A stretch of DNA of 21,186 nt from a virus: the IMG/VR virus record IMGVR_UViG_3300017750_000147, positions 1 to 21,186 of that record. One strand, given 5' to 3'. Below are positions 2 to 15,795 of the stretch, in pieces; within the stretch, counting starts at the first letter, position 1, and every line of letters starts with the position of its first letter. The translations under genes were made by a program, and so were the position numbers. The notes under the pieces were generated by a model. That model did no database searches. It was not told the DNA's origin and was given only the letters and a program-made list of their open reading frames with translations.

Positions 2-55
2 ACCAAATCCAAGGTAGATGACATACTCAAGTCACTACCAACACTGGACATGTAA
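2..55 (+). CDS. Possible 3' tail of an upstream gene (partial)
   Basis: The frame starting at base 2 is open from the window edge and reads TKSKVDDILKSLPTLDM before a TAA stop at 53-55. The hydrophilic, helix-like composition and tight spacing to the next possible start (ATG 58) fit the end of a gene entering from the left. Only 17 residues are visible, so no family can be named and chance openness cannot be excluded. Confidence 0.25.
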   Translation, partial: TKSKVDDILKSLPTLDM

Positions 56-57
56 CT

Positions 58-216
58 ATGCAGACTAACACTAGGTGCATGGATATGTGGCGTGGTAACA
101 AGCTGTACCACGTTAACGAGAATGCGAACGTGCGCAGGGTAATACTCAAGCGCACCAAGCATCTACCTAAAAATGTTCTACAGTGTAGAACTTCTAACCG
201 AGGAACGAAGCTATGA
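58..216 (+). CDS. Possible small basic protein (52 aa)
   Basis: ATG 58 opens a 52-codon frame that begins 2 nt after an upstream stop and ends at TGA 214-216, overlapping the ATG of the AAA+ gene by 4 nt (ATGA). That coupling is typical of this genome. The product is basic (RRVILKRTKHLPKN in the middle) with no recognised domain, signal peptide or membrane segment. An alternative start is ATG 79. Against it, its last third contains the 17-bp palindrome at 175-191 and the ribosome-binding leader of the next gene, so that part is probably constrained as regulatory DNA or RNA. The ribosome-binding site is weak. It may be real or may be chance openness in a leader. Confidence 0.33.
   Translation: MQTNTRCMDMWRGNKLYHVNENANVRRVILKRTKHLPKNVLQCRTSNRGTKL
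175..191. promoter_or_regulatory. 17-bp palindrome, copy 1 (GTTCTACAGTGTAGAAC)
   Basis: This is a perfect inverted repeat with 8-bp arms around a central G, ending 21 bp before the ATG of the AAA+ gene. The same element recurs at 2746-2762 and, in reverse-complement form, at 4762-4778. Eight-bp arms with an odd centre suit a dimeric DNA-binding protein. As RNA it could form a 7-bp hairpin just upstream of the ribosome-binding site. The recurrence and symmetry are visible; the function is inferred. Confidence 0.75.
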
Positions 217-1304
217 ATAACGTATATGTAAGCAGTATTGAAGAGATTGTCCAACTACTATTACACGTAGGTGGTAAACGCACTGTACTAATCGAGGGTG
301 ACATGGGTATTGGTAAGTCTAGCCTACTCAAAACACTCAAGCGATTGTTACCCGATCACATTGCATGTCTGTTTGATTGTACCACTAAGGATCTTGGTGA
401 CTTGTTTATACCTGATCTCAATCGTAAACTAGGTTGTGTATCATTCCTACCCAACGAACAGTTTGGTATACACCTTGATAAGCCCTTGATACTCATGCTT
501 GACGAACTGGGCAAAGCTAACCCATCAGTCAAGAACGCGTTACTTGTTGTCATGCTCGAGCACATGATTGGCAACCAACAACTACCCGAGGGTAGCATTG
601 TGTTTGCAACTACCAATCTGGGTGCAGAGGGTGTCGGTGATATGTTACCACCACATGCACGCAATCGTATCATCACAGTACGTATGCGCAAGCCGTCATC
701 TGATGAGTGGATCAACAACTACGCTATCAACAACGACGTACACCCATCAGTCATGGGTTTCGTACGTGAGTTTCCACAAGTCATGCAGTCATTCACTGAG
801 GTTAACAGCCCCGATGACAACCCATACATCTATCACCCCAAGCGACAAGCTAAATCATTCTGTACACCACGTTCACTCGAGTGTGCATCTGACATACTAC
901 ACCAACGTGAGCACCTATCCGATGACACGTTAACAGGCGCATTGATTGGTACTATCGGTGAGCGTGGTGCACTCGACATGATGGCGTTCGTCAAACTAGC
1001 CGACAAGCTACCAACGCTCGAGTCCATCAAGACTGACCCAATGAATGCAATCGTACCCGACAGTGCCAGTGCTGTATGTATGGTCGTGTATCGTGCACTT
1101 GCATCACTCGACAAAGCGTGGATTGATGCTTGGTTCAAGTACATGGGTAGGTTGAGTAAGGAAGCGCAAGGTCTGTTCGCGCTCGGTATCAAACCTGACA
1201 CATACAAGAACAAGTCACTCGTTACCACCAACAAGAGTTTCACTGCTTGGTGTCGTGAGAATAACTACATGTTCGGTGCAGACAAATCTGAGTCGCTAAT
1301 CTGA
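213..1304 (+). CDS. MoxR/CobS-like AAA+ ATPase
   Basis: The 363-aa protein is an AAA+ ATPase of the MoxR/CobS type, which remodels partner proteins using ATP, usually together with a VWA-domain partner encoded next to it. Visible motifs are Walker A GDMGIGKSS (residues 29-37), Walker B LILMLDE with D97 and E98, sensor-1 N135 in FATTN, and an arginine-containing ARNR segment near residue 150 that may be the arginine finger. The C-terminal third has no recognised domain. ATG 213 is preceded by GAGGAAC with 8-nt spacing after AGGA. The next gene is a DUF2201 metallopeptidase/VWA protein, the expected partner. A 17-bp palindrome lies just upstream and may control the unit. The phage role and substrate are unknown. 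ATPase class is secure; the MoxR assignment rests partly on the neighbour. Confidence 0.88.
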   Translation: MNNVYVSSIEEIVQLLLHVGGKRTVLIEGDMGIGKSSLLKTLKRLLPDHIACLFDCTTKDLGDLFIPDLNRKLGCVSFLPNEQFGIHLDKPLILMLDELGKANPSVKNALLVVMLEHMIGNQQLPEGSIVFATTNLGAEGVGDMLPPHARNRIITVRMRKPSSDEWINNYAINNDVHPSVMGFVREFPQVMQSFTEVNSPDDNPYIYHPKRQAKSFCTPRSLECASDILHQREHLSDDTLTGALIGTIGERGALDMMAFVKLADKLPTLESIKTDPMNAIVPDSASAVCMVVYRALASLDKAWIDAWFKYMGRLSKEAQGLFALGIKPDTYKNKSLVTTNKSFTAWCRENNYMFGADKSESLI

Positions 1305-1381
1305 CAGCAGAACAACGCATACACAAAGCGGTTGTATCTATCGTCAATCACCCACTGTACTTTGCACTAGCAGGTGTACTG

Positions 1382-2521
1382 ATGGTGGGCAAGCGTGAGG
1401 TACGTGACGATATACCGACAGCGTGTACCAATGGTCGTGACGAGTTCTATGGTCGTGCGTTTGTTGACAGTCTGACTGATGCCCAACTACGTTTTGTAAT
1501 ACTGCATGAGTGTTACCACAAAATGTACAAGCATCTTACAACGTGGCATCACCTATGGCTACGCTGTGCTATGACAGCCAACAGAGCGATGGACTATGTC
1601 ATCAACATACAGATACTCGACGCACACAAAGACGACGGGTTCGTCGATGGCATTGATGGTATGTGTTACGACACCAAGTATCGTGGTTGGGCTACACCCA
1701 AAGTGTTCAACGACATCTACCAGCAACAGCAACAAGACAATGGTTCTGGTGGTAACGAGTCAACAGGTGATGGGCAACAGTCGTCCAGTTCGTCGCAACA
1801 GTCTAGCCAACAGCCGTTCGATGAGCATGACTGGGAAGGTGCGCAAGAGATGACCGACGAGGAGCAGAAAGAGTTATCCAAAGAGATTGACGATGCGATA
1901 CGTCAGGGTGCTATCAGTGCAGGTAAGATGGGCAGTGGTGGTGAGCGTACAGTAGCCGACCTACTCGAACCACAGGTTGATTGGCGTGAGGTGTTACGTG
2001 AATACATCACCACACACTGTAGTGGCTCTGACTATGCTACATACAACCGACCCAACCGCAGACGATTGCACACAGGTATGTATTTACCTAGCGGTATATC
2101 CGAGCAGGTTGACGAGTTAGTGGTTGCTATTGATACGTCAGGCTCTATCGGTCAGCGTGAGTTATCGGTGTTCCTATCCGAGATCAAGTCTATCTGTGAG
2201 ACAGTACACCCCAAGTGTCTACGTGTACTGTATTGGGACACTGAGGTATGTCGTGACGAGAAGTATGAGATGCACGAACTACATGACATGGTCGAGTCTA
2301 CCAAGCCCGAGGGTGGTGGGGGTACAGATGTTAACTGTGTAACAAGTTACATGGCAGAGAACAACATCAGCCCGCAAGCATCAATCGTACTGACTGATGG
2401 TTATTTGTATGGCGGTTGGGGTTCTTGGTCAAATCCAGTGTTGTGGTGCATACTAGACAACCGCAGTGCAACACCTAACTGTGGTTCAACAGTACATGTT
2501 AAATCAGGAGATATGATATGA
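1382..2521 (+). CDS. DUF2201-type putative metallopeptidase with VWA-like domain
   Basis: The 379-aa product has two parts. The N-terminal part carries HExxH (HECYH, residues 42-46 from ATG 1382), the zinc-site signature of putative metallopeptidases of the DUF2201_N family. After a Gln/Ser/Gly-rich linker (about residues 117-150) comes a VWA-like domain with the MIDAS motif DTSGS (251-255), a GGGGTD loop and an LTDGY strand. Such proteins pair with MoxR-like AAA+ ATPases, and the gene directly follows one. The family-like sequence LTAEQRIHKAVVSI continues in frame upstream of ATG 1382 to about 1301, so the true start is probably earlier, possibly CTG 1301 overlapping the ATPase stop. No ATG, GTG or TTG exists between the in-frame stop at 1289 and 1382. 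Whether it is an active protease or a chaperone partner is not known. Confidence 0.85.
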   Translation: MVGKREVRDDIPTACTNGRDEFYGRAFVDSLTDAQLRFVILHECYHKMYKHLTTWHHLWLRCAMTANRAMDYVINIQILDAHKDDGFVDGIDGMCYDTKYRGWATPKVFNDIYQQQQQDNGSGGNESTGDGQQSSSSSQQSSQQPFDEHDWEGAQEMTDEEQKELSKEIDDAIRQGAISAGKMGSGGERTVADLLEPQVDWREVLREYITTHCSGSDYATYNRPNRRRLHTGMYLPSGISEQVDELVVAIDTSGSIGQRELSVFLSEIKSICETVHPKCLRVLYWDTEVCRDEKYEMHELHDMVESTKPEGGGGTDVNCVTSYMAENNISPQASIVLTDGYLYGGWGSWSNPVLWCILDNRSATPNCGSTVHVKSGDMI

Positions 2522-2703
2522 GTGAATCATTTGGTATGGGCATGGAAGCCGTACACCGACGCATGGAGTGGGACAGGGCAGTGGCAGAAGTACAGGAAGC
2601 AGTAGAGTTTAGGCTACAAGCTATGACAATGCGCTACTCTCATTGCACTGAAGAAGAAAGAGAACGGCTTGCCCAAGCATGGGCAAGAATATTACAGGGA
2701 TAA
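2518..2703 (+). CDS. Hypothetical helical protein (61 aa)
   Basis: The ATG overlaps the TGA of the metallopeptidase gene by 4 nt (ATGA), and AGGAG lies just upstream, so it is translationally coupled. The product is almost entirely predicted helix, rich in Glu, Arg and Ala, with one Cys and no recognised motif. It is the last gene of the AAA+ unit. A partner role to the ATPase/VWA pair is only a guess from position. A 7-bp inverted repeat (CTTGCCC/GGGCAAG) lies inside its 3' end. Confidence 0.7.
   Translation: MSESFGMGMEAVHRRMEWDRAVAEVQEAVEFRLQAMTMRYSHCTEEERERLAQAWARILQG
2668..2687 (+). other. Perfect 7-bp hairpin in the 3' end of the 61-aa gene
   Basis: CTTGCCC (2668-2674) and GGGCAAG (2681-2687) form a perfect stem with a 6-nt AAGCAT loop. 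No T tract follows, so it is not a standard intrinsic terminator. It sits about 60 bp before palindrome copy 2, where one transcription unit may end and another begin. It could limit read-through or protect an mRNA 3' end, or it may only reflect coding for AQAWAR. Confidence 0.35.
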
Positions 2704-2745
2704 GGTACATCTTACCCCCTAACGTAAGTAAACAACTGATAACAA

Positions 2746-2762
2746 GTTCTACAGTGTAGAAC
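2746..2762. promoter_or_regulatory. 17-bp palindrome, copy 2 (19 bp with flanks)
   Basis: The sequence is identical to copy 1, and flanking A (2745) and T (2763) extend the symmetry to 19 bp. It ends 19 bp before ATG 2782. The leader after it, GAGGAACTAAACTATG, matches the copy 1 leader GAGGAACGAAGCTATG at 14 of 16 positions, so palindrome and leader look like one duplicated unit. It lies in a 78-bp gene-free gap, so coding constraint does not explain it. Confidence 0.8.
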
Positions 2763-2781
2763 TTTATTGAGGAACTAAACT

Positions 2782-3753
2782 ATGGCTATGTTTCATTTTA
2801 ATCTAAATACTTTCGCAGAAGTAGAACGACGCTACGACAGCGTCAAACCAATACGTACTACAGGTCAAGTACCACTCGGTGATCGTGCGCGTAAGTGGGA
2901 GCACATCATCAAGGTCAACAAGAACAAGTACGTACTCATGGACAAGATACCCGACGATGAGGGTAACAGGTTCTGGTGTGGTAGCACCAAAGAAGAGATA
3001 GCACGTGCGCCTGTTACGTGGACAAGATGTGCGCATACTGGTATCGAAAAAATCCGAGTGCGCAACGACTATGGTGACACGTGTCACAATCAACGCTATT
3101 CATTCTTAGCACGTGCGCTACCGAGGTGTATGGATTTTCTGGTTCAACATGGTAAGCAATACGTCATACATGGTGATACTAATCATTACCTACCCAAGTC
3201 TACGTGGGTCAACAGTCACATGTATAAGTCGCTAATTGATATGCGTACAAGTCATGGCGAGACTAGATGGAATACACAGACTATGACAAAGACTGATGAT
3301 GGTAAGTACCTAGACTTTGAGCGTGATTCATTCAAGTCACGTGAACAGTGGACATGTACAACCGCACGTCACAAACAACCTGTAACACGTATCAAGATAA
3401 GCGCAGACAAGCGTGAGTATTACGAAGCTATACGTGAGTATGCCGAATGGGCTTGGGTGATGCAAAGCATATTGATGAACCGCGATCACTACGACTGGGA
3501 ACACCAACGACTTATACGACAACAGTGTGGTGATGCGGTAACCGACAGTGATGTGTTTCGTGATATGTTGATAGACCCTACCGATGAGCGACGTTCGCCT
3601 GTAGCCATAGCTATACTGGGTGAAATATCCGAGTACGATTGGCAGACCCAAACGTCATCACCACCCGAAGACGAGAAGAAGTTTATGAGTAGGTTCAAGT
3701 CACAGGTTGACAAGTTAGCCAACTTCAAAATCAAGTACCAAGACTACAAATAG
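2782..3753 (+). CDS. Hypothetical phage protein (323 aa)
   Basis: A long open frame with a good ribosome-binding site (GAGGAA, 8-nt spacing after GGA) starts directly after palindrome copy 2. The N-terminus (NTFAEVERRYDSVKPIR) resembles the start of uncharacterised proteins I recall from other tailed phages; I cannot name a domain. The protein is hydrophilic, rich in Arg, Tyr, Trp and His, with no signal peptide or membrane segment. Cysteines are scattered without a clear zinc motif. It is followed 10 nt later by another unrecognised gene of similar length, and the two probably form one unit. It is a real gene by length, ribosome-binding site and context; its function is unknown. Confidence 0.75.
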   Translation: MAMFHFNLNTFAEVERRYDSVKPIRTTGQVPLGDRARKWEHIIKVNKNKYVLMDKIPDDEGNRFWCGSTKEEIARAPVTWTRCAHTGIEKIRVRNDYGDTCHNQRYSFLARALPRCMDFLVQHGKQYVIHGDTNHYLPKSTWVNSHMYKSLIDMRTSHGETRWNTQTMTKTDDGKYLDFERDSFKSREQWTCTTARHKQPVTRIKISADKREYYEAIREYAEWAWVMQSILMNRDHYDWEHQRLIRQQCGDAVTDSDVFRDMLIDPTDERRSPVAIAILGEISEYDWQTQTSSPPEDEKKFMSRFKSQVDKLANFKIKYQDYK

Positions 3754-3763
3754 GAGATATGAA

Positions 3764-4756
3764 ATGTTTTTAACCGCCATACCAAGAAGGATAAATTACC
3801 ACAAAAAGGGTGATACTGGACGACCAATAAGTGCAGTGAAAGACTTGAGAGAAGCTACGAAGAACGACAAACGCCACGAGTACGAGTGGGGTAAGTTCTG
3901 TCAGTTCTTTGATGACTTTGTATACAAAGCTACGATGCACCTACCCAACGTAGAATTTGTTATGACTACAGTGTCAACAACTAAATATGAGGTAGTGGTG
4001 TTTTACAACGATGATTTGTGTGAGATGGGTAGACTGAGTACCACGTACTACGATGGTAACTTACAATACCACGTGCAGAGTCAAGCCATACAGAACCAAC
4101 GATACTGCCCACACAATTCACCCGATGACCACCACACGTTATCGAGCAAGAATATATCGAAAGCCGTAGCCAATGCGCGTAAATACTTGCGTCCCAATAC
4201 AATGTCCGATATTGCTAGGTCAACACATGATATCGTGGAACAAAGAGTTATGAAGCATCGTGGTGACGTAACTAGTGAACGTACAAATCGAGCACGCGAG
4301 GTGGGATTCGAGGTAAGTCCTGCAGGTCAATTGCCTGACATAGCACAAACAGTTATGGATATGCACCGAATGGGGTTGATGACTGTAGATGAGGAGTTAG
4401 ATAGAAAGCTAGGCACGCTGTACGATGCCATTGACGAGTACGATAAACTACTTGGTGAAGATGACGAGTACATGACATGTGTGTGGATAAAGAATGATGA
4501 GATACAGATGCACCCATTCGATGTACACTACAGACATGCCAGTCAAGCCACGAGAGTAAGTCGTGGTCAAGCACCTTGGGACGCGAGCTTTGGACGACAC
4601 CCCTGCGCAATACCACGTAACGAGTTACCAGATAGTGTGGCGGATAGGGTAGCTGTGTTAGATGTCTTAGGTGTTAATGATTTTGTATATGATGTTGGCG
4701 TTAAGTTATCAGATAGTGTATATTACGTTAGGTACGACTGGGGATACCCAGAATAA
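3764..4756 (+). CDS. Hypothetical phage protein (330 aa)
   Basis: The gene starts 10 nt after the previous stop with AGGAG upstream and ends just before palindrome copy 3. The soluble product carries an acidic region near residues 220-240 (DEYDKLLGEDDEY) and no motif I recognise. The neighbouring 323-aa protein is similar in length and composition, but I see no clear sequence similarity between them by eye. Likely co-transcribed with that gene under palindrome copy 2. No function is proposed. Confidence 0.75.
   Translation: MFLTAIPRRINYHKKGDTGRPISAVKDLREATKNDKRHEYEWGKFCQFFDDFVYKATMHLPNVEFVMTTVSTTKYEVVVFYNDDLCEMGRLSTTYYDGNLQYHVQSQAIQNQRYCPHNSPDDHHTLSSKNISKAVANARKYLRPNTMSDIARSTHDIVEQRVMKHRGDVTSERTNRAREVGFEVSPAGQLPDIAQTVMDMHRMGLMTVDEELDRKLGTLYDAIDEYDKLLGEDDEYMTCVWIKNDEIQMHPFDVHYRHASQATRVSRGQAPWDASFGRHPCAIPRNELPDSVADRVAVLDVLGVNDFVYDVGVKLSDSVYYVRYDWGYPE
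4695..4724 (+). promoter_or_regulatory. Candidate sigma70-like promoter before the nuclease operon
   Basis: TTGGCG (4695-4700) and TATATT (4719-4724) are separated by 18 bp and match the bacterial -35/-10 consensus at 4 and 5 of 6 positions. Transcription would start near 4731, placing palindrome copy 3 about 30-45 nt into the 5' leader. The boxes lie inside the end of the preceding gene, and such matches arise easily by chance in AT-rich DNA. Confidence 0.25.
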
Positions 4757-4761
4757 TAAAA

Positions 4762-4778
4762 GTTCTACACTGTAGAAC
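4762..4778. promoter_or_regulatory. 17-bp palindrome, copy 3 (central base inverted)
   Basis: GTTCTACACTGTAGAAC has the same 8-bp arms as copies 1 and 2 but a central C, so it is their exact reverse complement. With one flanking base on each side, its reverse complement equals copy 1 over 19 bp. It lies in a 45-bp gap and ends 23 bp before ATG 4802, the first gene of the DNA metabolism module. An orientation-independent operator is the simplest reading. Confidence 0.8.
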
Positions 4779-4801: not shown

Positions 4802-5128
4802 ATGGCTATGACCCCTGAAAGAAAGGTCAAGAAAAAAGTAGCCGACTATCTAAGAAGTATAGGTGCATACTTTTTCTATCCCGCAACTGGTGGGTATGGT
4901 AGAAGTGGTGTGCCTGACATAGTCGGTTGTTATAAAGGAAGATTCTTTGGTATAGAGTGCAAGGCGGGTACAAACAAGCCTACTGAGTTACAGAAGAATG
5001 AGTTAAAGCAAATCGCCCAAGCAGGTGGTATTGCTACTGTAACCAATGAGGATACAATACACACCCTTCAATATATATTGAATGGTTTACCCGAACCTGA
5101 CCCTAACCAACTGGAATTAGACCTGTGA
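4802..5128 (+). CDS. VRR-NUC domain nuclease
   Basis: The 108-aa protein is a stand-alone VRR-NUC domain, a compact PD-(D/E)XK nuclease found in phages and in FAN1-type repair enzymes. It cuts DNA structures such as flaps or junctions, depending on the member. The catalytic pattern is visible: D39 in SGVPDIVG, E52 and K54 in GIECKAG, and Q64 in TELQK. Length is normal for single-domain phage members. ATG 4802 has AAGGAG upstream. It opens the replication module right after palindrome copy 3 and overlaps the next gene by 4 nt (GTGA), so it probably acts in phage replication or recombination intermediate processing. Its exact substrate is not shown. Confidence 0.9.
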   Translation: MAMTPERKVKKKVADYLRSIGAYFFYPATGGYGRSGVPDIVGCYKGRFFGIECKAGTNKPTELQKNELKQIAQAGGIATVTNEDTIHTLQYILNGLPEPDPNQLELDL

Positions 5129-5322: not shown

Positions 5323-5559
5323 ATGGAAGATTTTAAAATAGATAAAGAAAACACTTTTACCAAGCGCGATGTGGAAGCAGTGCATAGGTTAGCAGAAAAA
5401 ATATACGTGGCAAGTTTTGCAAACTCCGATGAAAATGGCTACGTTACAACAAGCGATGCGTGGGATTACGCTGTTGGCTTTCACTCACACGCCCTAGCAA
5501 TGTGGGAGTTATCTGATTTGCCTACAGATGAACAAGGAAACTTTTTGGAGGAGAAATAA
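5323..5559 (+). CDS. Hypothetical acidic protein (78 aa)
   Basis: ATG 5323 has an AGGAG ribosome-binding site 9 nt after the previous stop. The acidic protein contains a helix-rich centre (RDVEAVHRLAEKIYVASF, then YAVGFHSHALAMWEL). No catalytic motif is evident. It sits between the VRR-NUC and DUF3310 genes in a compact operon. Small proteins here are often accessory and unassigned. Confidence 0.68.
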   Translation: MEDFKIDKENTFTKRDVEAVHRLAEKIYVASFANSDENGYVTTSDAWDYAVGFHSHALAMWELSDLPTDEQGNFLEEK

Positions 5560-5560
5560 G

Positions 5561-5866
5561 ATGGTTGATGCAAGCCCTAAAGAATGGGACGAACTAAGAG
5601 AGAAGCACCCTGAACTTATCGAGAAGTATGAAAACTTTTTGAACGAGGTGGGTGACGATCCAGTCAATAACCCGAACCATTACAATACAGGTGGAGTAGA
5701 ATGTATTGAGGGTATCGAGTCTAGTATGAGTCCTAACGCGTTTCTAGGTTATCTCAAGGGTAACTGTATGAAATATATGTGGCGTTATGAGTACAAGGGT
5801 AAGCCCCTTGAGGATTTAGAAAAGGCTCAATGGTATCTCAATCTGCTTATAGAACGGAATAAGTAA
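5561..5866 (+). CDS. DUF3310 family protein
   Basis: The 101-aa product ends in a DUF3310 domain, seen as DPVNNPNHY (residues 33-41), then YLKGNCMKYMWRYEYKG and a DLEKAQWYLNLLI helix. DUF3310 is common in phages and often annotated as nucleotide kinase-like, but its biochemical role is not established. ATG 5561 is preferred because GGAGGAGAAAT lies just upstream and overlaps the end of the previous gene; a longer frame from ATG 5528 would add 11 residues without a good ribosome-binding site. The stop overlaps the polymerase start (TAATG). Confidence 0.88.
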   Translation: MVDASPKEWDELREKHPELIEKYENFLNEVGDDPVNNPNHYNTGGVECIEGIESSMSPNAFLGYLKGNCMKYMWRYEYKGKPLEDLEKAQWYLNLLIERNK

Positions 5867-7686
5867 TGGATCTTATTACGTTAGACTTTGAGACGTATTA
5901 CGACAAAGATTTCTCACTACGTAAGATGACAATGGAAGCCTACATTCGTGACCCTCGCTTTGAGGTGATCGGTGTAGGTGTTAAACTGAATAGTGGTGAG
6001 ACTGAATGGGCAAGTGGTACGCATGAGCAGATTAGTAGTTATCTACATTCTTTTGATTGGAGCAACGCTATGCTCCTTTGCCATAACACTTTGTTCGACG
6101 GTGCTATTATTTCTTGGCTCTTTGATATACAACCTCGCGTCTATGCTGATACTCTTTGCATTGCTCGCGCACTACACGGTGTCGAGGTTGGTGGATCTCT
6201 TCATGTGCTTAGTCAAAGGTATAATATTGGAACTAAAGGCACGGAAATTTTAAATGCCGTAGGTAAACGTAGAGAAGACTTTACACCAGAAGAACTTAGT
6301 AGGTATGGTGACTACTGTGTCAACGATGTAGAGTTAACCTATAAGTTGTTTATGCTTATGGGTAAGAACTTTCCTAAACAAGAGATGCGCATCATTGACA
6401 TGACATTGCGTATGTTCACCGAACCAATGCTAGACCTAGACATTGGACTACTTCAAGAACACCTAGAAAATACCATCAAGATAAAAGAAGATTTGATAGA
6501 GTCAAGTGGTGTCACACGTGAACAGCTAATGAGTAACCCCAAATTTGCCGAACTACTGGTATCAATGAATGTCGATCCCCCGATGAAAACAAGTCTCACA
6601 ACAGGCAAAGAAACCTACGCATTCGCAAAAAGTGATGAGGGATTTAAAGCGTTACAAGAACACGAAGACCCACGTGTACAGGCACTTGTTACTGCACGTT
6701 TGGGTACTAAAAGTACGCTAGAAGAATCACGTACTGAGAGGTTTATAGGTATTGCTAAACGCGGATTAATACCTATCCCAGTGAGGTACTATGCCGCGCA
6801 TACAGGTAGATGGGGTGGTGATGACAAAATCAACATACAAAACCTACCCAGTCGCGGTGCTAATGGTAAGAAGTTGAAGTCCAGTATCATCGCGCCAGTA
6901 GGTTACACACTAGTTGATTGTGATTCATCACAAATCGAGGCACGTGTACTTGCATGGTTGGCAGGGCAAGACGATCTAGTCCAAGCCTTTGCTGACAACG
7001 AAGATGTGTATGTCAAAATGGCATCTAAGATATACAACGTCAAAGAGAAAGACGTTACCAAAGAGCAGAGGTTTGTAGGTAAGAGTACGATACTTGGTGC
7101 AGGTTATGGCATGGGTGCGGTTCGGTTTGCTGAGCAGTTGGGAGCGTTTGGTACAAAGATAGAAGTAGATGAGGCACGTAGGATTATATCTATCTACAGA
7201 GATTCAAATTGGAGAATAGCTCAATTCTGGCGTGAGTGTCAGAACATGTTAGTGAGTATGTCTCGAGGAGAGGCAGGTGCAGTGGGTACAAACAACCTAC
7301 TTACCTACAGAGATAACTCGATAAAGTTGCCAAGTGGTCTGCGTATGCGGTATGGTGACTTAAATTATGAACAAGGCGAACGCGGTTTAGAGTTTAGTTA
7401 CATGACAAGGCGTGGTCGCACAAGGATCTACGGTGGTAAGGTTACAGAGAATGTGTGCCAAGCTATCGCTAGGTGCATCATGGGTGAACAGATGTTGGCT
7501 ATTGCCAAGCGGTACAAGCCTGTATTAACAGTGCATGATTCCGTGGTATGCTGTGTACCTGATGATGAGTTAGAAGAGGCTAGACAATACATAGAAGATT
7601 GTATGAGTACGACACCTTCATGGGCAGAAGGTATGCCTATAACGTGTGAGTCTGGCATTGGTAAATCTTATGGAGACTGTGAATAA
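5866..7686 (+). CDS. polA: Family A DNA polymerase with 3'-5' exonuclease
   Basis: The 606-aa replicative polymerase has a DnaQ-like proofreading domain: D7 and E9 in TLDFETYY, HNTLFD as Exo II, and YCVNDVELTYK as Exo III. The polymerase core follows: motif A D353 to E358 (DSSQIE), motif B from QRFVGKSTILGAGYG, and motif C H557-D558 (VHDS). The residue aligned with E. coli Pol I Phe762 is Leu410, a variation known among phage polymerases. There is no 5'-3' exonuclease domain, as usual in phages. It starts in a TAATG overlap with DUF3310 and overlaps the next gene by 1 nt. It would copy the phage genome with the downstream primase-helicase and ssDNA-binding protein. Confidence 0.97.
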   Translation: MDLITLDFETYYDKDFSLRKMTMEAYIRDPRFEVIGVGVKLNSGETEWASGTHEQISSYLHSFDWSNAMLLCHNTLFDGAIISWLFDIQPRVYADTLCIARALHGVEVGGSLHVLSQRYNIGTKGTEILNAVGKRREDFTPEELSRYGDYCVNDVELTYKLFMLMGKNFPKQEMRIIDMTLRMFTEPMLDLDIGLLQEHLENTIKIKEDLIESSGVTREQLMSNPKFAELLVSMNVDPPMKTSLTTGKETYAFAKSDEGFKALQEHEDPRVQALVTARLGTKSTLEESRTERFIGIAKRGLIPIPVRYYAAHTGRWGGDDKINIQNLPSRGANGKKLKSSIIAPVGYTLVDCDSSQIEARVLAWLAGQDDLVQAFADNEDVYVKMASKIYNVKEKDVTKEQRFVGKSTILGAGYGMGAVRFAEQLGAFGTKIEVDEARRIISIYRDSNWRIAQFWRECQNMLVSMSRGEAGAVGTNNLLTYRDNSIKLPSGLRMRYGDLNYEQGERGLEFSYMTRRGRTRIYGGKVTENVCQAIARCIMGEQMLAIAKRYKPVLTVHDSVVCCVPDDELEEARQYIEDCMSTTPSWAEGMPITCESGIGKSYGDCE

Positions 7687-7889
7687 TGGCTAAAGATAAA
7701 ATAGAAAAAGCAATCAAAGAAGCACATGAAGTGGCTGATGAAGCTATTGATGAACTACAAGAGGATATTACAGAGGCACGTAACTCTGTTATGGAATGGC
7801 TACACACGGAACGCACTTTCAAGCAAGCTGAACTTCTTGTAGCAGGTCTAGGTGTACTAGCAATAATCTGGGCTGTAGGTAGCATGTAA
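7686..7889 (+). CDS. Small single-pass membrane protein (67 aa)
   Basis: An N-terminal amphipathic, acid-rich helix (residues 1-48) is followed by a hydrophobic segment, LLVAGLGVLAIIWAVGSM, at the extreme C-terminus. This is a tail-anchor-like layout. It overlaps the polymerase stop and the next start by 1 nt each (TAATG), so it is locked into the replication operon. The layout recalls the small membrane-bound ElaB/YqjD-type proteins, but this is only a resemblance. It could tether replication factors to the membrane or do something unrelated. Confidence 0.75.
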   Translation: MAKDKIEKAIKEAHEVADEAIDELQEDITEARNSVMEWLHTERTFKQAELLVAGLGVLAIIWAVGSM

Positions 7890-8560
7890 TGAGCATAACG
7901 CCTTGGTCATTCAGTAAAATTAAATCCTTTGAACAATGCCCAAAGAAGTTTTATCATCTAAAGGTAGCGAAGGATTATAAAGAGCCTGAGACTGAGGCGA
8001 TGCTTTATGGTACTGCTGTGCACGAAGCGGCAGAGGAGTACATTCGAGATGGAAAGCCGTTACCCCCTGAGTACGATTATATAAAAGCCCCACTAGATTC
8101 ATTGAACATGAAACAGGGGAACAAACTTTGTGAATACGAGATGGGGTTGACGGCTGACCTTGAACCTTGTGGGTTCTGGGACGATAACTGTTGGTACAGG
8201 GGTATAGCTGATTTAGTTATACTTGACGAAGAAAACAAAACTGCTTGGGTAATAGATTACAAGACAAGCAAGAACACACGTTATGCTGACAAGGGACAGT
8301 TAGAACTTATGGCGTTGTGTGTATTTAAACATTTTCCTGAAATTGAGACTGTACGTGGCGGTCTTTTGTTTGTAGTATGTAACGAGTTAATACGTGATAC
8401 TTACAAGTCAAGCTCCGCTGGTAAGTTATGGGAAAAGTGGTTAGCTGATTACAACCGCATGGAACAGGCGTGGAAAAAAGATGTATGGAATGCTCACCAA
8501 AGTGGGTTATGTAAACGACATTGCATTGTTACAGAATGCGTGCATAATGGTAGACACTGA
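7889..8560 (+). CDS. Cas4/RecB-like PD-(D/E)XK nuclease
   Basis: The 223-aa protein has the RecB/Cas4 nuclease pattern: N-terminal SFSKIKSFEQCPKKFYH, GTAVHEAAE (metal-binding His), GIADLVI (Asp), VIDYKTSK (catalytic D-Y-K) and the QLELMAL helix with Gln. One Cys near the N-terminus (C17) and three near the C-terminus (C208, C212, C217) match the iron-sulphur cluster layout of Cas4 and AddB. It probably resects or trims phage DNA ends with the helicase encoded downstream. It is not accompanied by Cas1 or Cas2, so no CRISPR role is implied. Start and stop overlap neighbours by 1 nt. Confidence 0.93.
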   Translation: MSITPWSFSKIKSFEQCPKKFYHLKVAKDYKEPETEAMLYGTAVHEAAEEYIRDGKPLPPEYDYIKAPLDSLNMKQGNKLCEYEMGLTADLEPCGFWDDNCWYRGIADLVILDEENKTAWVIDYKTSKNTRYADKGQLELMALCVFKHFPEIETVRGGLLFVVCNELIRDTYKSSSAGKLWEKWLADYNRMEQAWKKDVWNAHQSGLCKRHCIVTECVHNGRH

Positions 8561-8799
8561 TGAGAAAGAAACGTAAAAAACAAGTTAATGCTCCTGTTGG
8601 CAGTGAAACCTTTGAAAGAAGAATGGAACGCCAACGTGCTAGGCGTGCGTTTGATAAAAAGAATGGTAAAGCCGCACGCAAAGGTAAAGATATAAGTCAC
8701 AACAAGATGTTAAAGAACGGTGGCAGTAATAAAGATGGTTACAAATTAGAAAGTCCTAGTAAGAATAGATCTAGGAATGGGCATAAGCCTAAGAAATAG
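8560..8799 (+). CDS. Small basic HNH-like protein (79 aa)
   Basis: The start overlaps the nuclease stop by 1 nt (TGATG). The product is very basic, with Lys/Arg clusters at both ends. Residues 40-73 (KGKDISHNKMLKNGGSN, then SPSKNRSRNG) resemble the DHxxPLxxGG...N...NR core of small phage HNH nucleases I recall, but the usual Asp before His is Ser here (S46-H47). It may be a small HNH-type nuclease, a degenerate relative, or a DNA-binding accessory protein. Activity is doubtful without the first acidic residue. Confidence 0.7.
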   Translation: MRKKRKKQVNAPVGSETFERRMERQRARRAFDKKNGKAARKGKDISHNKMLKNGGSNKDGYKLESPSKNRSRNGHKPKK

Positions 8800-8901
8800 T
8801 TTTTGCTTGGTGTGTCAGACGCTTAGCTTGATGCGTCGTTAAACAACGTGGTTCGTTCCTCCTCCTTTGCGGTGCTTATAACCACAAAAATCGAGTTAGC
8901 T

Positions 8902-9012
8902 ATGGGTTCGATTAAAGTCCCACATAGCAGACCTAGCCCCATCTGTAGCGACATCGGGGCTAATTTTATCGTAGACGGACACCGTTTTACGAGGTTCACT
9001 GATGGAGAATAA
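8902..9012 (+). CDS. Possible small ORF (36 aa) before the helicase
   Basis: ATG 8902 opens a 36-codon frame (begins MGSIKVPHSRPSP, ends RFTRFTDGE) that stops at TAA 9010-9012, three bases before the helicase TTG. A GTG at 8848 in the same frame would give 54 aa. The tight fit to the next start agrees with gene packing here. The ribosome-binding site is weak, codon use is unremarkable, and a 7-bp stem lies within it, so it may be chance openness. Confidence 0.28.
   Translation: MGSIKVPHSRPSPICSDIGANFIVDGHRFTRFTDGE
8934..8967 (+). terminator. Candidate hairpin terminator or attenuator
   Basis: TAGCCCC (8934-8940) pairs perfectly with GGGGCTA (8956-8962), with a possible inner TGT/ACA stem capped by AGCG. 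AATTTTAT follows, a short and imperfect T tract. It could end or attenuate transcription from the polymerase operon before the helicase gene. No strong promoter is seen between it and the helicase start, so full termination is unlikely. Confidence 0.4.
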
Positions 9013-9015
9013 AAA

Positions 9016-10551
9016 TTGAAGATAGTAGATAACCGCGCACTGTTACTTAACCTAAGATCACCCGGGCGGGTTACGAGTGTTATACCAAAGAGTAAGAAGT
9101 TATCAGAACATGAAGTATTAGTTAATTGGGGAGTTGATGAAGTGCAAGTATTACGTAACATAGGTATCAATGCGCCTTCACCTATTGAAGGTAAGTATGA
9201 GTGGACAGGTAGATACGATCCGTACGAACACCAAAAATCTACAGCAAGTTTCTTTACGCTAAATAAAAAATCATTTTGTTTTAATGAACAAGGTACAGGC
9301 AAGACAGCCAGTGCTATTTGGGCATCAGATTACTTGTTAAATCAGGGCAAGATAAACAGGGTGTTAGTTATATGCCCTCTATCTATTATGGAATCGGCAT
9401 GGCGTAACGACTTATTTAATTTTGCCATGCACCGCAAGGTAGATGTAGCGTATGGTTCAGCCAAGAAGCGCAGAGAGATAATCGAAGGTGACGCTGAGTA
9501 CGTGATAATAAATTACGATGGTGTGGAGATTGTACAAGAATCTGTACAACAAGGTGGCTTTGATTTAATTATTGTAGATGAAGCTACACACTATAAGAAT
9601 GTACAGACCAAGCGGTGGAAGACACTTAACAAGTTAGTGGGTAAGGATACTTGGTTGTGGATGATGACAGGTACACCTGCGGCACAAAGTCCAACCGATG
9701 CGTTTGGCATAGCTAAACTTGTAAACCCAACCGCACTACCTCGGTTTTTTGGATCGTTTCGAGACCAAGTAATGGTCAAGGTAACAAACTTCAAGTGGAT
9801 ACCAAAAGACGATGCTACTGACAGGGTGCACCGAGTCTTACAACCTGCCATACGTTACACCAAAGAAGAGTGCCTAGATTTACCACCTATGGTTTATGTT
9901 AAGCGTGAAGTAGACATGACTGCGCAACAAAATAAATACTACAAAGAATTAAAGAACAAGATGATTATGCAAGCAGCAGGGGAGCAAATCACCGCTGCGA
10001 ATGCGGCAGTAAACATGAACAAGTTACTCCAAATATCATCTGGCGCTGTATATACCGATACTGGTGAGTCATTGGAGTTTGATATAACTAAAAGATATAA
10101 AGTGCTACGTGAGGTCATTGATGAGTCAAGTAAGAAAGTTCTAGTCTTTGTACCTTTCAGACATACCATACAGTTACTCACTGACAAGCTACGCAAAGAT
10201 GGTATATCCACAGAGGTAATCAATGGTGATGTACCTGCACCCAAACGTACTGATATATTTAAACGCTTTCAAGAACAAGACGACCCAAAAGTTTTAGTTA
10301 TCCAACCACAGTCTGCGGCACACGGTGTAACACTTACAGCGGCAAACACTGTGGTGTGGTGGTCGCCCACCAGTTCGTTAGAAACGTACGCGCAAGCGAA
10401 TGCTAGGGTGCACAGATCAGGTCAGGATCAGAAGTGTACGATTGTCCACCTACAAGGATCTTACGTAGAGAAACGTGTTTACACATTATTGGACAATAGA
10501 ATAGACATACACACAAAAATGATTGACTTATATAAAGAAATACTTGACTAG
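9016..10551 (+). CDS. SNF2-like DEAD/DEAH superfamily 2 helicase
   Basis: The 511-aa protein is an SF2 helicase/translocase of the SNF2 type. Motif I is EQGTGKT (91-97), motif II DEATH (188-192), motif III MMTGTPAAQSP, motif V near SAAHGVTLTAANTVVWW, and motif VI QANARVHRSGQ (460-470) with both arginines. These bind ATP and couple hydrolysis to movement on DNA. The start is TTG 9016 with GGAG at 9004-9007 and 8-nt spacing; no ATG in frame fits better. Similar proteins occur in phage replication clusters, probably aiding fork remodelling or recombination. The primase-helicase downstream is the likelier replicative helicase, so this may be a repair or restart factor. Confidence 0.94.
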   Translation: MKIVDNRALLLNLRSPGRVTSVIPKSKKLSEHEVLVNWGVDEVQVLRNIGINAPSPIEGKYEWTGRYDPYEHQKSTASFFTLNKKSFCFNEQGTGKTASAIWASDYLLNQGKINRVLVICPLSIMESAWRNDLFNFAMHRKVDVAYGSAKKRREIIEGDAEYVIINYDGVEIVQESVQQGGFDLIIVDEATHYKNVQTKRWKTLNKLVGKDTWLWMMTGTPAAQSPTDAFGIAKLVNPTALPRFFGSFRDQVMVKVTNFKWIPKDDATDRVHRVLQPAIRYTKEECLDLPPMVYVKREVDMTAQQNKYYKELKNKMIMQAAGEQITAANAAVNMNKLLQISSGAVYTDTGESLEFDITKRYKVLREVIDESSKKVLVFVPFRHTIQLLTDKLRKDGISTEVINGDVPAPKRTDIFKRFQEQDDPKVLVIQPQSAAHGVTLTAANTVVWWSPTSSLETYAQANARVHRSGQDQKCTIVHLQGSYVEKRVYTLLDNRIDIHTKMIDLYKEILD

Positions 10552-10572
10552 TACACAATCATACGCTATTTT
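10544..10572 (+). promoter_or_regulatory. Candidate sigma70-like promoter
   Basis: TTGACT (10544-10549) and TATTTT (10567-10572) are exactly 17 bp apart, matching the consensus at 5 and 4 of 6 positions. They lie across the end of the helicase gene and a 49-bp gap before ATG 10601, which has AAAGGAG upstream. This could drive the genes for the coiled-coil, HTH and ssDNA-binding proteins. The match is good but unproven. Confidence 0.4.
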
Positions 10573-10600
10573 GTCTATCCCTTTTGTAAAGGAGCGTTAA

Positions 10601-10999
10601 ATGAGTGAAGAAAAGTTAACTGCTGAGAAGCTAACTACTGTTTATTTGAAGATAAAAGATAAGCGTAGTGAGTTATCAGCAGAGTTTAAAGAGAAAGATG
10701 CTGAGTTATCCGAGCAGTTAAATAAAGTTAAGAAGGCTTTGTTGGAATACTGTCAGGAAGAAGGTGTCGATAGTGTAAGAACTTCTGCGGGATTGTTTTA
10801 CCGTTCTGCTCGTACACGTTATTGGACTAGTGATTGGTCTTCAATGCACGAGTTTATTCTTGAGCATGAAGCACCTGAACTGTTAGATAAACGTGTGAAT
10901 CAGGGCAACATGAAACAGTTTTTGGAAGAGAACCCCGACCTTGTACCTAAAGGTCTTAACGTAGATTCTGAATACGTTGTATCAGTAAGGAGAAAATGA
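10601..10999 (+). CDS. Conserved phage protein with N-terminal coiled coil (132 aa)
   Basis: ATG 10601 follows AAAGGAG. Residues 10-55 are a charged heptad-like helix (KDKRSELSAEFKEKDAEL), then a compact domain with TRYWTSDWSSMHEFI and KRVNQGNMKQFLEENPDL and a final VSVRRK strand. I recall similar sequences in other phage genomes near recombination or replication genes, without a proven function. The long helix followed by a small domain recalls host-nuclease-inhibitor-like proteins such as Gam only loosely. Its stop overlaps the HTH gene by 4 nt. Confidence 0.72.
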   Translation: MSEEKLTAEKLTTVYLKIKDKRSELSAEFKEKDAELSEQLNKVKKALLEYCQEEGVDSVRTSAGLFYRSARTRYWTSDWSSMHEFILEHEAPELLDKRVNQGNMKQFLEENPDLVPKGLNVDSEYVVSVRRK

Positions 11000-11244
11000 T
11001 GTCAGATAATTTTGTTCCAATCGGTGACGTAGCAGATAAGTTTAGTGTATCTAAACACACAGTCAGGCAGTGGTTGCGTAAAGGCAAGATCCCTGCGGAT
11101 ATGTATGTGAAGATCGGTAACACTTATCGTTACAACCTTCAAGGGATTGAAAACGCCTTTTTGAATACCAATAAAGATTCGGTAGTAGAAGAGGCGGTCA
11201 GTGACTATGAGTTTGGCACTGACATGTTAGACGAGGACTTCTAA
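10996..11244 (+). CDS. MerR/excisionase-like HTH DNA-binding protein
   Basis: The 82-aa product begins with a winged-helix HTH of the MerR/Xis type: PIGDVADKFSVSKHTVRQWL (about residues 8-27), RKGKIPADMYVKIGNTYRYN, then a helix ending in an acidic tail. This fold binds DNA, as in excisionases, terminase small subunits or regulators. ATG 10996 overlaps the previous stop (ATGATG); ATG 10999 is equally possible. It is the only clear small DNA-binding regulator in the window and so a candidate for the 17-bp palindrome, but nothing links them directly. The stop overlaps the next start by 1 nt. Confidence 0.82.
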   Translation: MMSDNFVPIGDVADKFSVSKHTVRQWLRKGKIPADMYVKIGNTYRYNLQGIENAFLNTNKDSVVEEAVSDYEFGTDMLDEDF

Positions 11245-11903
11245 TGAGAAGGTTGAGCATACGTGGTGGTACGTTTACCGACATTGCTGATAGGGAGCAA
11301 ACTCCTTTAGGTGATATGGTAAATGTAATCATCGTGAATGCCGCGCCTGTATCAAGATCATATTTTGGTAATGAGTTTGACCCTAACAAGTCTACTGCGC
11401 CAGTCTGTTGGTCTGATGATACACAACGACCCTCTACCAAGGTATTAGAGGATAACGTGCAATCACGTAGGTGTATGGACTGTACACAGAATGTACGTGG
11501 TTCTGGTGAGCATGGTGGTAGGGCTTGTCGGTTTCAACAACGACTTGCTGTTGTGTTTGAAGGAGATCTCGAAGAGGTGTATCAGTTGCAGATACCTGCC
11601 AGTTCTATATTCGGCAGAGCGCAAGGTGGTAACATGGGTATGCAAGAGTATGCTCGTCACCTATCTTCACATGATACGTCTGTTATTGCTGTCGTTACAA
11701 ACATTACGTTTGATAAAGATAGTGTTGTTCCAAAACTTTATTTTAAACCTATGCGACCTATTGAGAAAGGTGATGGGCTAAAGATAGCAGAGATGGTGGT
11801 ACACGAAGATACAAAACGTGCTATCACATCGTTCGTCCCTGTAACTAGCGAACCCTCACCCTTCGGCAAAGTGGAAGGTGGGTTTGATATAAATGCAAAC
11901 TAA
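11244..11903 (+). CDS. Cys4 phage protein next to ssDNA-binding gene (219 aa)
   Basis: The protein has four cysteines (C55, C77, C80, C95; the last three in RRCMDCTQN and GRACRF) that could bind zinc. It ends with SPFGKVEGGF, and the next gene, a probable ssDNA-binding protein, carries the same PFGKVEGGF. I recall similar proteins with this Cys pattern in other phages, without known function. The adjacency and shared motif suggest a role in DNA binding or partner recruitment. The start overlaps the HTH stop by 1 nt (TAATG). A zinc-containing nucleic-acid-binding role is inferred, not shown. Confidence 0.72.
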   Translation: MRRLSIRGGTFTDIADREQTPLGDMVNVIIVNAAPVSRSYFGNEFDPNKSTAPVCWSDDTQRPSTKVLEDNVQSRRCMDCTQNVRGSGEHGGRACRFQQRLAVVFEGDLEEVYQLQIPASSIFGRAQGGNMGMQEYARHLSSHDTSVIAVVTNITFDKDSVVPKLYFKPMRPIEKGDGLKIAEMVVHEDTKRAITSFVPVTSEPSPFGKVEGGFDINAN

Positions 11904-11915
11904 GGTAAATTAATT

Positions 11916-12617
11916 ATGGCTAATACAAATAGCAGTTATATTATAGAAAACGTTGAGGCTCTCTGGCCTCGTATTAATAAACCATACCGTTTTGATAACG
12001 CAGAAAATCGCACTGTACCGTGTACCGCGTTTGACGATGGTGCTAAATACGAGATTAAATTTCGTATGACAAAAGATCAAGCTAAGGCTTTGTATCTTGA
12101 AATGTGTAAGGCGTATGAAGAACGCAAAGAAAAAGGGTGGCCTGAGAAAGTTGATAACCCATTCACCAAAGATGACGATGGTATGTATGTGTACAAAGCC
12201 ACGTTGAAAGGTGCGTATGGTAAAGAGGCTACACTTAAACCTGTACAAGTGGACTCTAATGGGAGTAAACTACCAGAAGATTTCATGTTAACCACAGGCA
12301 GTACAGTCAATGTGGCTGTAATCTTTGTGCCCTATAACATGCGTGAAGCAGGAATCTCACTACGTTTGAAAGCGGTACAAGTAATTAAATATGTACCTAT
12401 GGAATCTAGCACGCCATTCGGTAAGGTTGAAGGTGGCTTTACATTCCAGAAAGATGATAACCCTTTTGAGGTTGTTGAAGCTAAACCTACTACCAATGTT
12501 ATTGAAGGTGAGTTTGGTGATACACCTGAACCAAAGAAAGTCAGTAAAAAAGCAACACCTAAACCAAAAAAGACTGACGCTGATCTTGCATCAATCGTAG
12601 ACGACTGGGACGACTAG
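11916..12617 (+). CDS. Probable phage ssDNA-binding protein (gp2.5-like)
   Basis: The 233-aa product has a beta-rich core (about residues 1-165) followed by a flexible Lys/Pro linker (PKKVSKKATPKPKK) and an acidic aromatic tail, ADLASIVDDWDD. That layout is typical of phage ssDNA-binding proteins such as T7 gp2.5, whose tail contacts polymerase and helicase. It lies 12 nt after the Cys4 gene, shares PFGKVEGGF with it (positions 12414-12440), and precedes the primase-helicase, all consistent with coating single strands at the fork. The specific family is inferred by layout, not by a catalytic signature. Two hairpins overlap and follow its stop. Confidence 0.75.
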   Translation: MANTNSSYIIENVEALWPRINKPYRFDNAENRTVPCTAFDDGAKYEIKFRMTKDQAKALYLEMCKAYEERKEKGWPEKVDNPFTKDDDGMYVYKATLKGAYGKEATLKPVQVDSNGSKLPEDFMLTTGSTVNVAVIFVPYNMREAGISLRLKAVQVIKYVPMESSTPFGKVEGGFTFQKDDNPFEVVEAKPTTNVIEGEFGDTPEPKKVSKKATPKPKKTDADLASIVDDWDD

Positions 12618-12622
12618 TCCCA
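12606..12622 (+). other. 6-bp hairpin spanning the ssDNA-binding gene stop
   Basis: TGGGAC (12606-12611) and GTCCCA (12617-12622) form a perfect stem around GACTA, with the TAG stop at 12615-12617 in loop and stem. No T tract follows. It may stabilise the abundant mRNA 3' end or be a side effect of the DDWDD tail codons. Confidence 0.35.
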
Positions 12623-12648
12623 CAAACTTAGCTAGGTATAACCGAAAA

Positions 12649-12664
12649 GGGGGCAACCGCCCCC
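12649..12664. terminator. GC-rich hairpin before the primase, minus-strand terminator-like
   Basis: GGGGGC (12649-12654) and GCCCCC (12659-12664) make a strong stem with an AACC loop. On the + strand no T run follows. On the - strand the stem is followed by TTTT (AAAA at 12645-12648 on +), so it resembles an intrinsic terminator for antisense transcription. On + it may instead partly attenuate or process the mRNA between the ssDNA-binding and primase genes. Confidence 0.45.
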
Positions 12665-12698
12665 CTGCTATCTCCACCCTCGGAATTAGGAATGTATT

Positions 12699-15772: not shown

Positions 15773-15795
15773 CCGAGGCATTGGGGAGTTTTTTT
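15760..15795 (+). terminator. Rho-independent terminator of the + strand operon
   Basis: ACTCCCC (15760-15766) pairs with GGGGAGT (15783-15789), a 7-bp stem with a 16-nt loop followed by seven T residues (15789-15795). It lies just after the last + gene and reaches into the stop codon of the minus-strand giant gene. Only the + direction has the T tract, so it ends the replication operon and would shield the convergent gene from read-through. Confidence 0.82.

Follow-up and report, generated by a model that had tools for sequence, protein, structure and literature searches.

What is the function of a short perfect palindrome that recurs just ahead of successive gene blocks of a phage, and which factor recognises it? 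The question is raised by a 21,186-bp metagenomic virus fragment, analysed here over its whole length (the window), in which the palindrome GTTCTACA-N-TGTAGAAC occurs exactly three times, at 175-191, 2746-2762 and 4762-4778. Chance would give a mean of 0.11 copies, and three were never reached in 100 shuffles. The first-pass annotation had listed these three 17-bp copies and no other full copy, and both the exact scan and a scan with up to three mismatches, which found no further copy in the window, agree. It had placed the copies 20-24 bp ahead of the first genes of their blocks, the third with an inverted central base and each able to form a 7-bp hairpin; the distances as measured are 21, 19 and 23 bp, the centre bases read G, G and C, and the predicted RNA fold is a 7-bp stem with a 3-nt loop.

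The window and its three sites

Sites are numbered S1 to S8 along the early region of the phage group. The window holds S6 to S8; the boundary of the record leaves S1 to S5 outside, together with the gene of the candidate regulator described below. The features are as follows.

2..55, plus strand: DUF3150-like neighbour gene, C-terminal 17 codons and stop (read directly against a 292-aa relative, S5_292)
175..191, no strand: site S6, GTTCTACAGTGTAGAAC, ending 21 bp 5' of the AAA+ ATPase ATG (213)
213..1304, plus strand: AAA+ ATPase (PHROG 1297 ATPase, E 4e-52; Pfam AAA below cut-off)
1382..2521, plus strand: VWA/metallopeptidase-like protein, DUF2201 (PF13203, E 5e-24; PF09967, E 3e-16)
2518..2703, plus strand: 61-aa protein, the final gene ahead of S7 (open reading frame)
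2746..2762, no strand: site S7, GTTCTACAGTGTAGAAC, ending 19 bp 5' of the hypothetical gene 1 ATG (2782)
2782..3753, plus strand: hypothetical gene 1, the first past S7 (no Pfam or PHROG match)
3764..4756, plus strand: hypothetical gene 2 (no Pfam or PHROG match)
4762..4778, no strand: site S8, GTTCTACACTGTAGAAC, ending 23 bp 5' of the nuclease ATG (4802)
4802..5128, plus strand: Hjc/VRR-NUC-like nuclease, the first gene past S8 (PF01870, E 2e-4)
5528..15503, plus strand: replication block (Pfam/PHROG matches)

The nuclease behind S8 is the first gene of the replication block, whose further content comprises DUF3310, a family A DNA polymerase, a PD-(D/E)XK nuclease, an SNF2 helicase, an HTH_17 protein (10996-11244), a T7 gp2.5-like SSB and a DUF927 primase-helicase; no further palindrome site was found inside 5528-15503. 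Orthologues of S6 are present in L053, L055, L052 and L016, and S7 is also intact in the diverged relatives L010, L027 and L023. The DUF3150-like gene, which takes its name from a distant relative, served as the control gene in the co-variation comparisons below.

Two observations concern other parts of the window. In the L010/L027 clade the hypothetical pair between S7 and S8 (2782-4756), at 43% and 30%, diverges much faster than its neighbours, at 70-85%. The minus strand of 15794-21184 encodes a very long late protein with an HETSH motif, the homologue of which in a 66-kb relative matches DarB-like antirestriction proteins (PHROG 10089).

A set of eight sites in longer relatives

A scan of IMG/VR for the exact pattern returned 41 stretches, with contigs of the same group holding several copies each. 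The 66.4-kb relative IMGVR_UViG_3300025759_000085 (hereafter the 66-kb phage) carries eight sites, seven of which have a 1-nt spacer and the eighth a 2-nt spacer. They span about 7.5 kb, from 46.5 to 54.0 kb, and a search allowing one or two mismatches found nothing in the rest of the genome; the copies are confined to one region and not scattered. The same eight sites recur in two other relatives (three relatives in all). In relatives, the site with the 2-nt spacer lies just upstream of the window's first site. The proposal of the first-pass annotation that one regulator governs a small regulon thus stands as the best reading, except that the regulon has eight sites and not three, and the regulator of the window's palindromes is best read as encoded outside the window.

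In the 66-kb phage S1 lies upstream of a sigma-70-like promoter match of a single gene for a 178-aa protein, and S2 is placed after the terminator of this gene. S3 lies in a non-coding stretch rich in GTTAC repeats. Neither S2 nor S3 precedes a gene. S4 is found in the leader downstream of the region's best promoter match (TTGACA-16-TATACT), and S5 to S8 lie just ahead of later genes, S5 even within the preceding open reading frame, with no comparable promoter match of their own. Because the sole strong promoter match ahead of the operon precedes S4, S5 to S8 appear to lie inside one transcription unit.

At orthologous sites the palindrome arms are identical in 128 of 128 bases in each of three genome pairs, as opposed to 70-85% identity in the flanks, while the spacer of 1-2 nt is free to vary in sequence and length. 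No conserved sequence was found downstream of the palindrome across these pairs. Of 218 gene-proximal sites, 178 have their end 10-29 bp ahead of the ATG. Conservation in relatives, on which the first-pass annotation had made its regulon depend, therefore has two aspects: close relatives keep the element at the same genes, whereas the wider group keeps its position and palindromic form but not the 17-mer.

Several stretches outside the window deserve mention in their own right. About 0.7 kb of non-coding DNA around S2-S3 (L049:12300-13400) resembles a replication origin: GTTAC/GTAAC repeats are numerous, GATACCAGT recurs and one block is AT-rich. A conserved non-coding block between S1 and the divergent late operon (L049:14042-14201, CCTTTTTTAAACAAGGTGGGGGG...), common to types that differ in the first early gene, is a possible packaging site. 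L047:9561-20000 together with L048:1-5469 forms a single reading frame of about 5,300 aa with TLQTDLTAA-type repeats, the first 3,479 residues of which gave no PHROG match. Finally, contigs of an unrelated phage group (L006, L007, L012, L013, L018, L019, L025, L031 and L038 among others) have a single exact copy of the 17-mer within a conserved reading frame, which is probably a coincidence.

The product of the first early gene

The 178-aa protein of the 66-kb phage is the product of the first gene of the early region, next to S1, and we refer to it as FGP (first-gene protein). FGP gave no match to Pfam, PHROG or PDB sequences and no relative was found in cultured phages; all phages that carry it are metagenomic contigs. 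A search of three bacterial genomes gave no match either, a result that carries little information. The predicted structure of FGP (mean pLDDT 88) consists of helices throughout, with a linker between a helical domain at the N-terminus and a pair of helices at the C-terminus. Comparison of the model with PDB and viral fold libraries yielded no convincing match, most of the model being barely tested by it, and neither profile nor fold search found a helix-turn-helix (HTH) motif. Profile searches did however retrieve homologues at 27-35% identity, each beside repeated palindromes of its own, among them TGTTAGTG-N3-CACTAACA and GTTATAAC-N2/4-GTTATAAC, and in the large contigs checked these palindromes are likewise confined to the early region. 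FGP is an uncharacterised protein family, represented in dozens of the contigs examined. Integrase, resolvase and ParA (PF00589, PF00239, PF13614) were not found in nine relatives of 58-66 kb, records that may be incomplete, in searches whose controls matched; lysogeny is therefore not an obvious purpose of the system.

Palindromes and FGP change together

Loci of the wider group were collected by means of the DUF3150-like neighbour from at least 590 contigs, the best 80 of which were examined. About 76 of these best 80 carry a multi-copy palindrome, in more than 15 distinct sequences, as compared to 3 of 155 loci negative for FGP. Across types the palindromes are perfect, 16-20 bp long and present in up to about eleven copies; spacer length differs by 1-2 nt within one type, and most sites of the window's type (type A) have a 1-nt spacer. 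L010, L011 and L194 carry TACTGCGA-N-TCGCAGTA at or near the places of S1 to S5 and have a different first gene. L239, which shares 82-88% identity with the 66-kb phage across most of the DNA that can be aligned, carries GTGTAACA-N-TGTTACAC at six positions together with a different FGP.

Palindrome identity is predicted better by FGP than by any other gene tested with enough pairs. The palindrome was the same, that is, shared a 6-mer in the half-site, in 90 of 90 pairs with an FGP identity of at least 0.5, pairs which are not independent of one another. When the comparison is restricted to pairs with at least 80% identity in the neighbour protein, FGP identity distinguishes shared from differing palindromes with an AUC of 0.985, rising to 1.0 at a threshold of 90%, as compared to 0.43-0.71 at the 80% threshold for late1, AAA, VWA, VRR, DNAP, the S4 gene and the neighbour itself. 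Hypothetical gene 1 reaches 0.91-1.0, on only five different-type pairs.

Phages that are nearly identical (95-99% at the DNA level) differ in the FGP gene and in nearly all palindromes. L282 and L285 share 91-99% DNA identity over most of 18.9 kb and an identical neighbour protein, and L282 contains an additional 0.9 kb or so; the two FGPs have 20% identity, and every site reads GTTAGGGAATTCCCTAAC in one genome and GTAGTCC-N2-GGACTAC in the other. L258 and L261 are 95-97.5% identical, the FGP gene being the sole stretch that cannot be aligned, and again the palindromes differ. L261 moreover has five sites of the new type, one intact site of the old type and two hybrids, GTTAGTGCCGCACTACC and GGTAGTGCCGGCACTACC, and is thus caught in the middle of a switch between types. 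The hybrids are hard to explain by assembly chimeras, because the hybrid sequence belongs to neither type.

Several genomes of mixed type retain the old sequence solely at a distance from FGP. This pattern suggests a joint exchange of FGP and the sites close to it by recombination, with the distal sites following later. Between L194 and the 66-kb phage, similarity ends 5-8 bp before S1, skips FGP and then resumes, and in L010 and L194 an S6 of the old type has decayed to one arm, a half-site, after the change of FGP.

A candidate mechanism and its alternatives

The analysis establishes the sites, where they lie and how they are conserved, and shows that they are restricted to the early region and co-vary tightly with FGP. 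On balance we favour the reading that a regulator encoded by the phage, most probably FGP, recognises the palindromes and would control the early operon through binding of double-stranded DNA, regulator and sites forming a matched set. FGP would be made early from its own promoter, bind each site with each arm serving as a half-site, and restrain the early operon at several successive points in the manner of a roadblock or stoperator, in front of every gene block; it would in addition control its own gene via S1. Its specificity and the site sequences would evolve as a matched set, with recombination swapping the FGP cassette and nearby sites and the distal sites then being converted one by one. 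We infer that FGP is itself the binder. The effect of FGP is presumably negative: sites inside an operon would most simply act by blocking early transcription, but they might also activate it or control translation.

That DNA rather than RNA would be the bound form is suggested by three features. S1 lies outside the FGP transcript in several types, including the 66-kb phage and L258, where the promoter of FGP is downstream of the site; S2 and S3 are not placed ahead of any gene; and in imperfect copies the changes affect a single arm and are not compensated (66 one-sided changes, 47 of them pair-breaking, versus 5 compensatory ones). Several points argue against this reading. FGP contains no recognisable DNA-binding domain, and a spacer varying between 1 and 2 nt is unusual for a rigid dimer. 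The tight distance to the ATG, kept even inside the preceding reading frame at S5, is needed by a translational operator but not by a pure elongation roadblock, and the capacity of every type tested to form a hairpin counts against an explanation by DNA only. Moreover, FGP was not found in cultured phages, the co-variation pairs lack independence, and hypothetical gene 1 likewise tells same from different types in the few pairs that it offers.

Some of these points lead directly to the alternative that the first-pass annotation had already raised, that the sites act as RNA. A leader hairpin beside the Shine-Dalgarno sequence would be bound by FGP or another factor and exert translational control, or load an antitermination complex as lambda N does at nut boxB. 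The hairpin itself is borne out, as every type tested folds into a stem of 7-8 bp with a loop of 3-4 nt, and the flexible spacer, the constant distance to the ATG and the position of S1 within the FGP leader in L239 and L261 all fit. We nevertheless consider RNA binding unlikely and less favoured than DNA binding, since in the 66-kb phage, L258 and others the promoter of FGP lies downstream of S1, since S2 and S3 are followed by no gene and since imperfect copies show one-sided changes; in addition, the loop is free and the stem fixed here, the opposite of boxB-type recognition.

But could FGP be merely genetically linked to the sites, and another phage protein bind them? The HTH_17 protein (10996-11244) carries the only clear DNA-binding motif near the sites, and in the few available pairs hypothetical gene 1, too, varies with the type. 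Yet L027 keeps an HTH protein 88% identical while its sister L010 of the same clade has the other palindrome type, and in the pairs L258/L261 and L282/L285 the palindromes differ although the genomes are 91-99% identical outside FGP, which makes a different binder improbable.

Still less probable are hairpin promoters of the kind used by the N4 virion RNA polymerase, with a 7-bp stem, a 3-nt loop, a start about 11 nt downstream and a short leader for each gene. The dimensions of stem and loop would agree with this, as would the distance to the ATG, but perfectly symmetric sites would fire in both directions, nothing is conserved downstream of the palindrome, S1 lies upstream of a separate sigma-70-like promoter, and no RNA polymerase was recognised among the large proteins checked in the 66-kb relative (a PF00940 search, run without a working control, likewise gave no match). 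Recruitment or titration of a host transcription factor, which would be expected to require just such two-fold symmetric sites near early genes, can hardly be upheld, since 84,980 bacterial and archaeal genomes gave 104 stretches, almost all of them scattered single copies near chance level, and the site sequence changes between near-identical phages along with a gene of the phage.

Two further candidates were rejected. A regulon in the host was one, the genome scan yielding scattered single copies with a tandem repeat in Rhodopirellula as the one exception; intrinsic terminators were the other, as some type A copies score terminator-like but other types lack a T-run past the stem.

Implications

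It has long been asked how a regulator can change its specificity in step with many scattered sites, since every intermediate state ought to be non-functional. The phages examined offer at least 15 matched sets, with phage pairs that are 95-99% identical apart from the set and genomes that contain old, new and hybrid sites together. Natural regulatory rewiring can thus be observed, and it can be tested, site sequences and candidate regulators being short. One may hypothesize that FGP not only closes early transcription but also silences superinfecting genomes of the same type, which would favour new types; if it does, this would amount to immunity-like competition in phages without lysogeny genes. 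More tentatively than the mechanism itself, we suggest that FGP could represent a new family and fold of sequence-specific regulator in apparently virulent phages, diversifying as immunity systems do and exchanged with its sites as a set between near-identical phages, perhaps by way of shutdown of same-type superinfection.

Comparison with known systems

The window as a whole has no DNA match in cultured phages, and a literature search on repeated early palindromes in phages and cyanophages found nothing relevant. BlaI/CopY-type operators (TACA-NN-TGTA, core TACANNTGTA) have a fixed 2-nt spacer and thus differ from most type A sites with their 1-nt spacer, and the other palindrome types lack the core TACANNTGTA. 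In lambdoid phages the N regulator is encoded near the start of the early operon and acts with type-specific, hairpin-forming leader sites (nut boxB), which are recognised in the reverse of a free loop and a fixed stem. The FGP phages share with this system the position of the regulator gene and the type-specific sites able to form hairpins. They differ from it in the free loop and fixed stem, in the number of copies (up to about eleven) and in the position of S1: both the 66-kb phage and L258 have it 5' of the promoter match for FGP, outside the FGP transcript.

Among distant relatives without FGP, Rhizobium phage RHph_TM27A (L058) has about 23 copies of a degenerate GTTACCT-N4-AGGTAAC, some of them inside genes. 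The cultured Planktothrix phage Pag-Yong1 (OL906435.1, L235), a distantly related cyanophage with the same DUF3150/AAA/VWA genes, is one of the three FGP-negative loci with a multi-copy palindrome. It carries about 20 copies of CGGTTCAG-N-CTGAACCG, likewise of the form 8-1-8, which mostly end 16-27 bp before the ATGs of early genes, as in the FGP phages. Unlike the sites of these phages, the copies are degenerate and vary mainly at the outer base of the gene-proximal arm. An FGP homologue was not detected in Pag-Yong1, and its first early gene encodes an unrelated-looking protein of 187 aa.

The stoperators of Cluster A mycobacteriophages are many copies of one short site, spread over the genome and mostly away from promoters, at which repressors of the L5 gp71 type block elongation; site consensus and regulator diverge together between relatives (PMC6550527, PMC9283540). 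Each stoperator is an asymmetric site of 13 bp, all share one orientation, and the protein that binds them in these temperate phages is an immunity repressor that acts as a monomer and contains an HTH. The sites described here are in contrast perfect palindromes of 16-20 bp; FGP has no recognised domain, although absence of a match is no proof; and integrase and ParA were not found in the nine large relatives, the records of which may be incomplete. Because of the symmetric sites, the lack of a recognised HTH and the prophage-maintenance genes not found, we do not file the FGP/palindrome set as a stoperator system. Stoperators nonetheless appear to be the known system most like it, with multiple copies of one short site, eight in the 66-kb relative, most of which lie within the operon.
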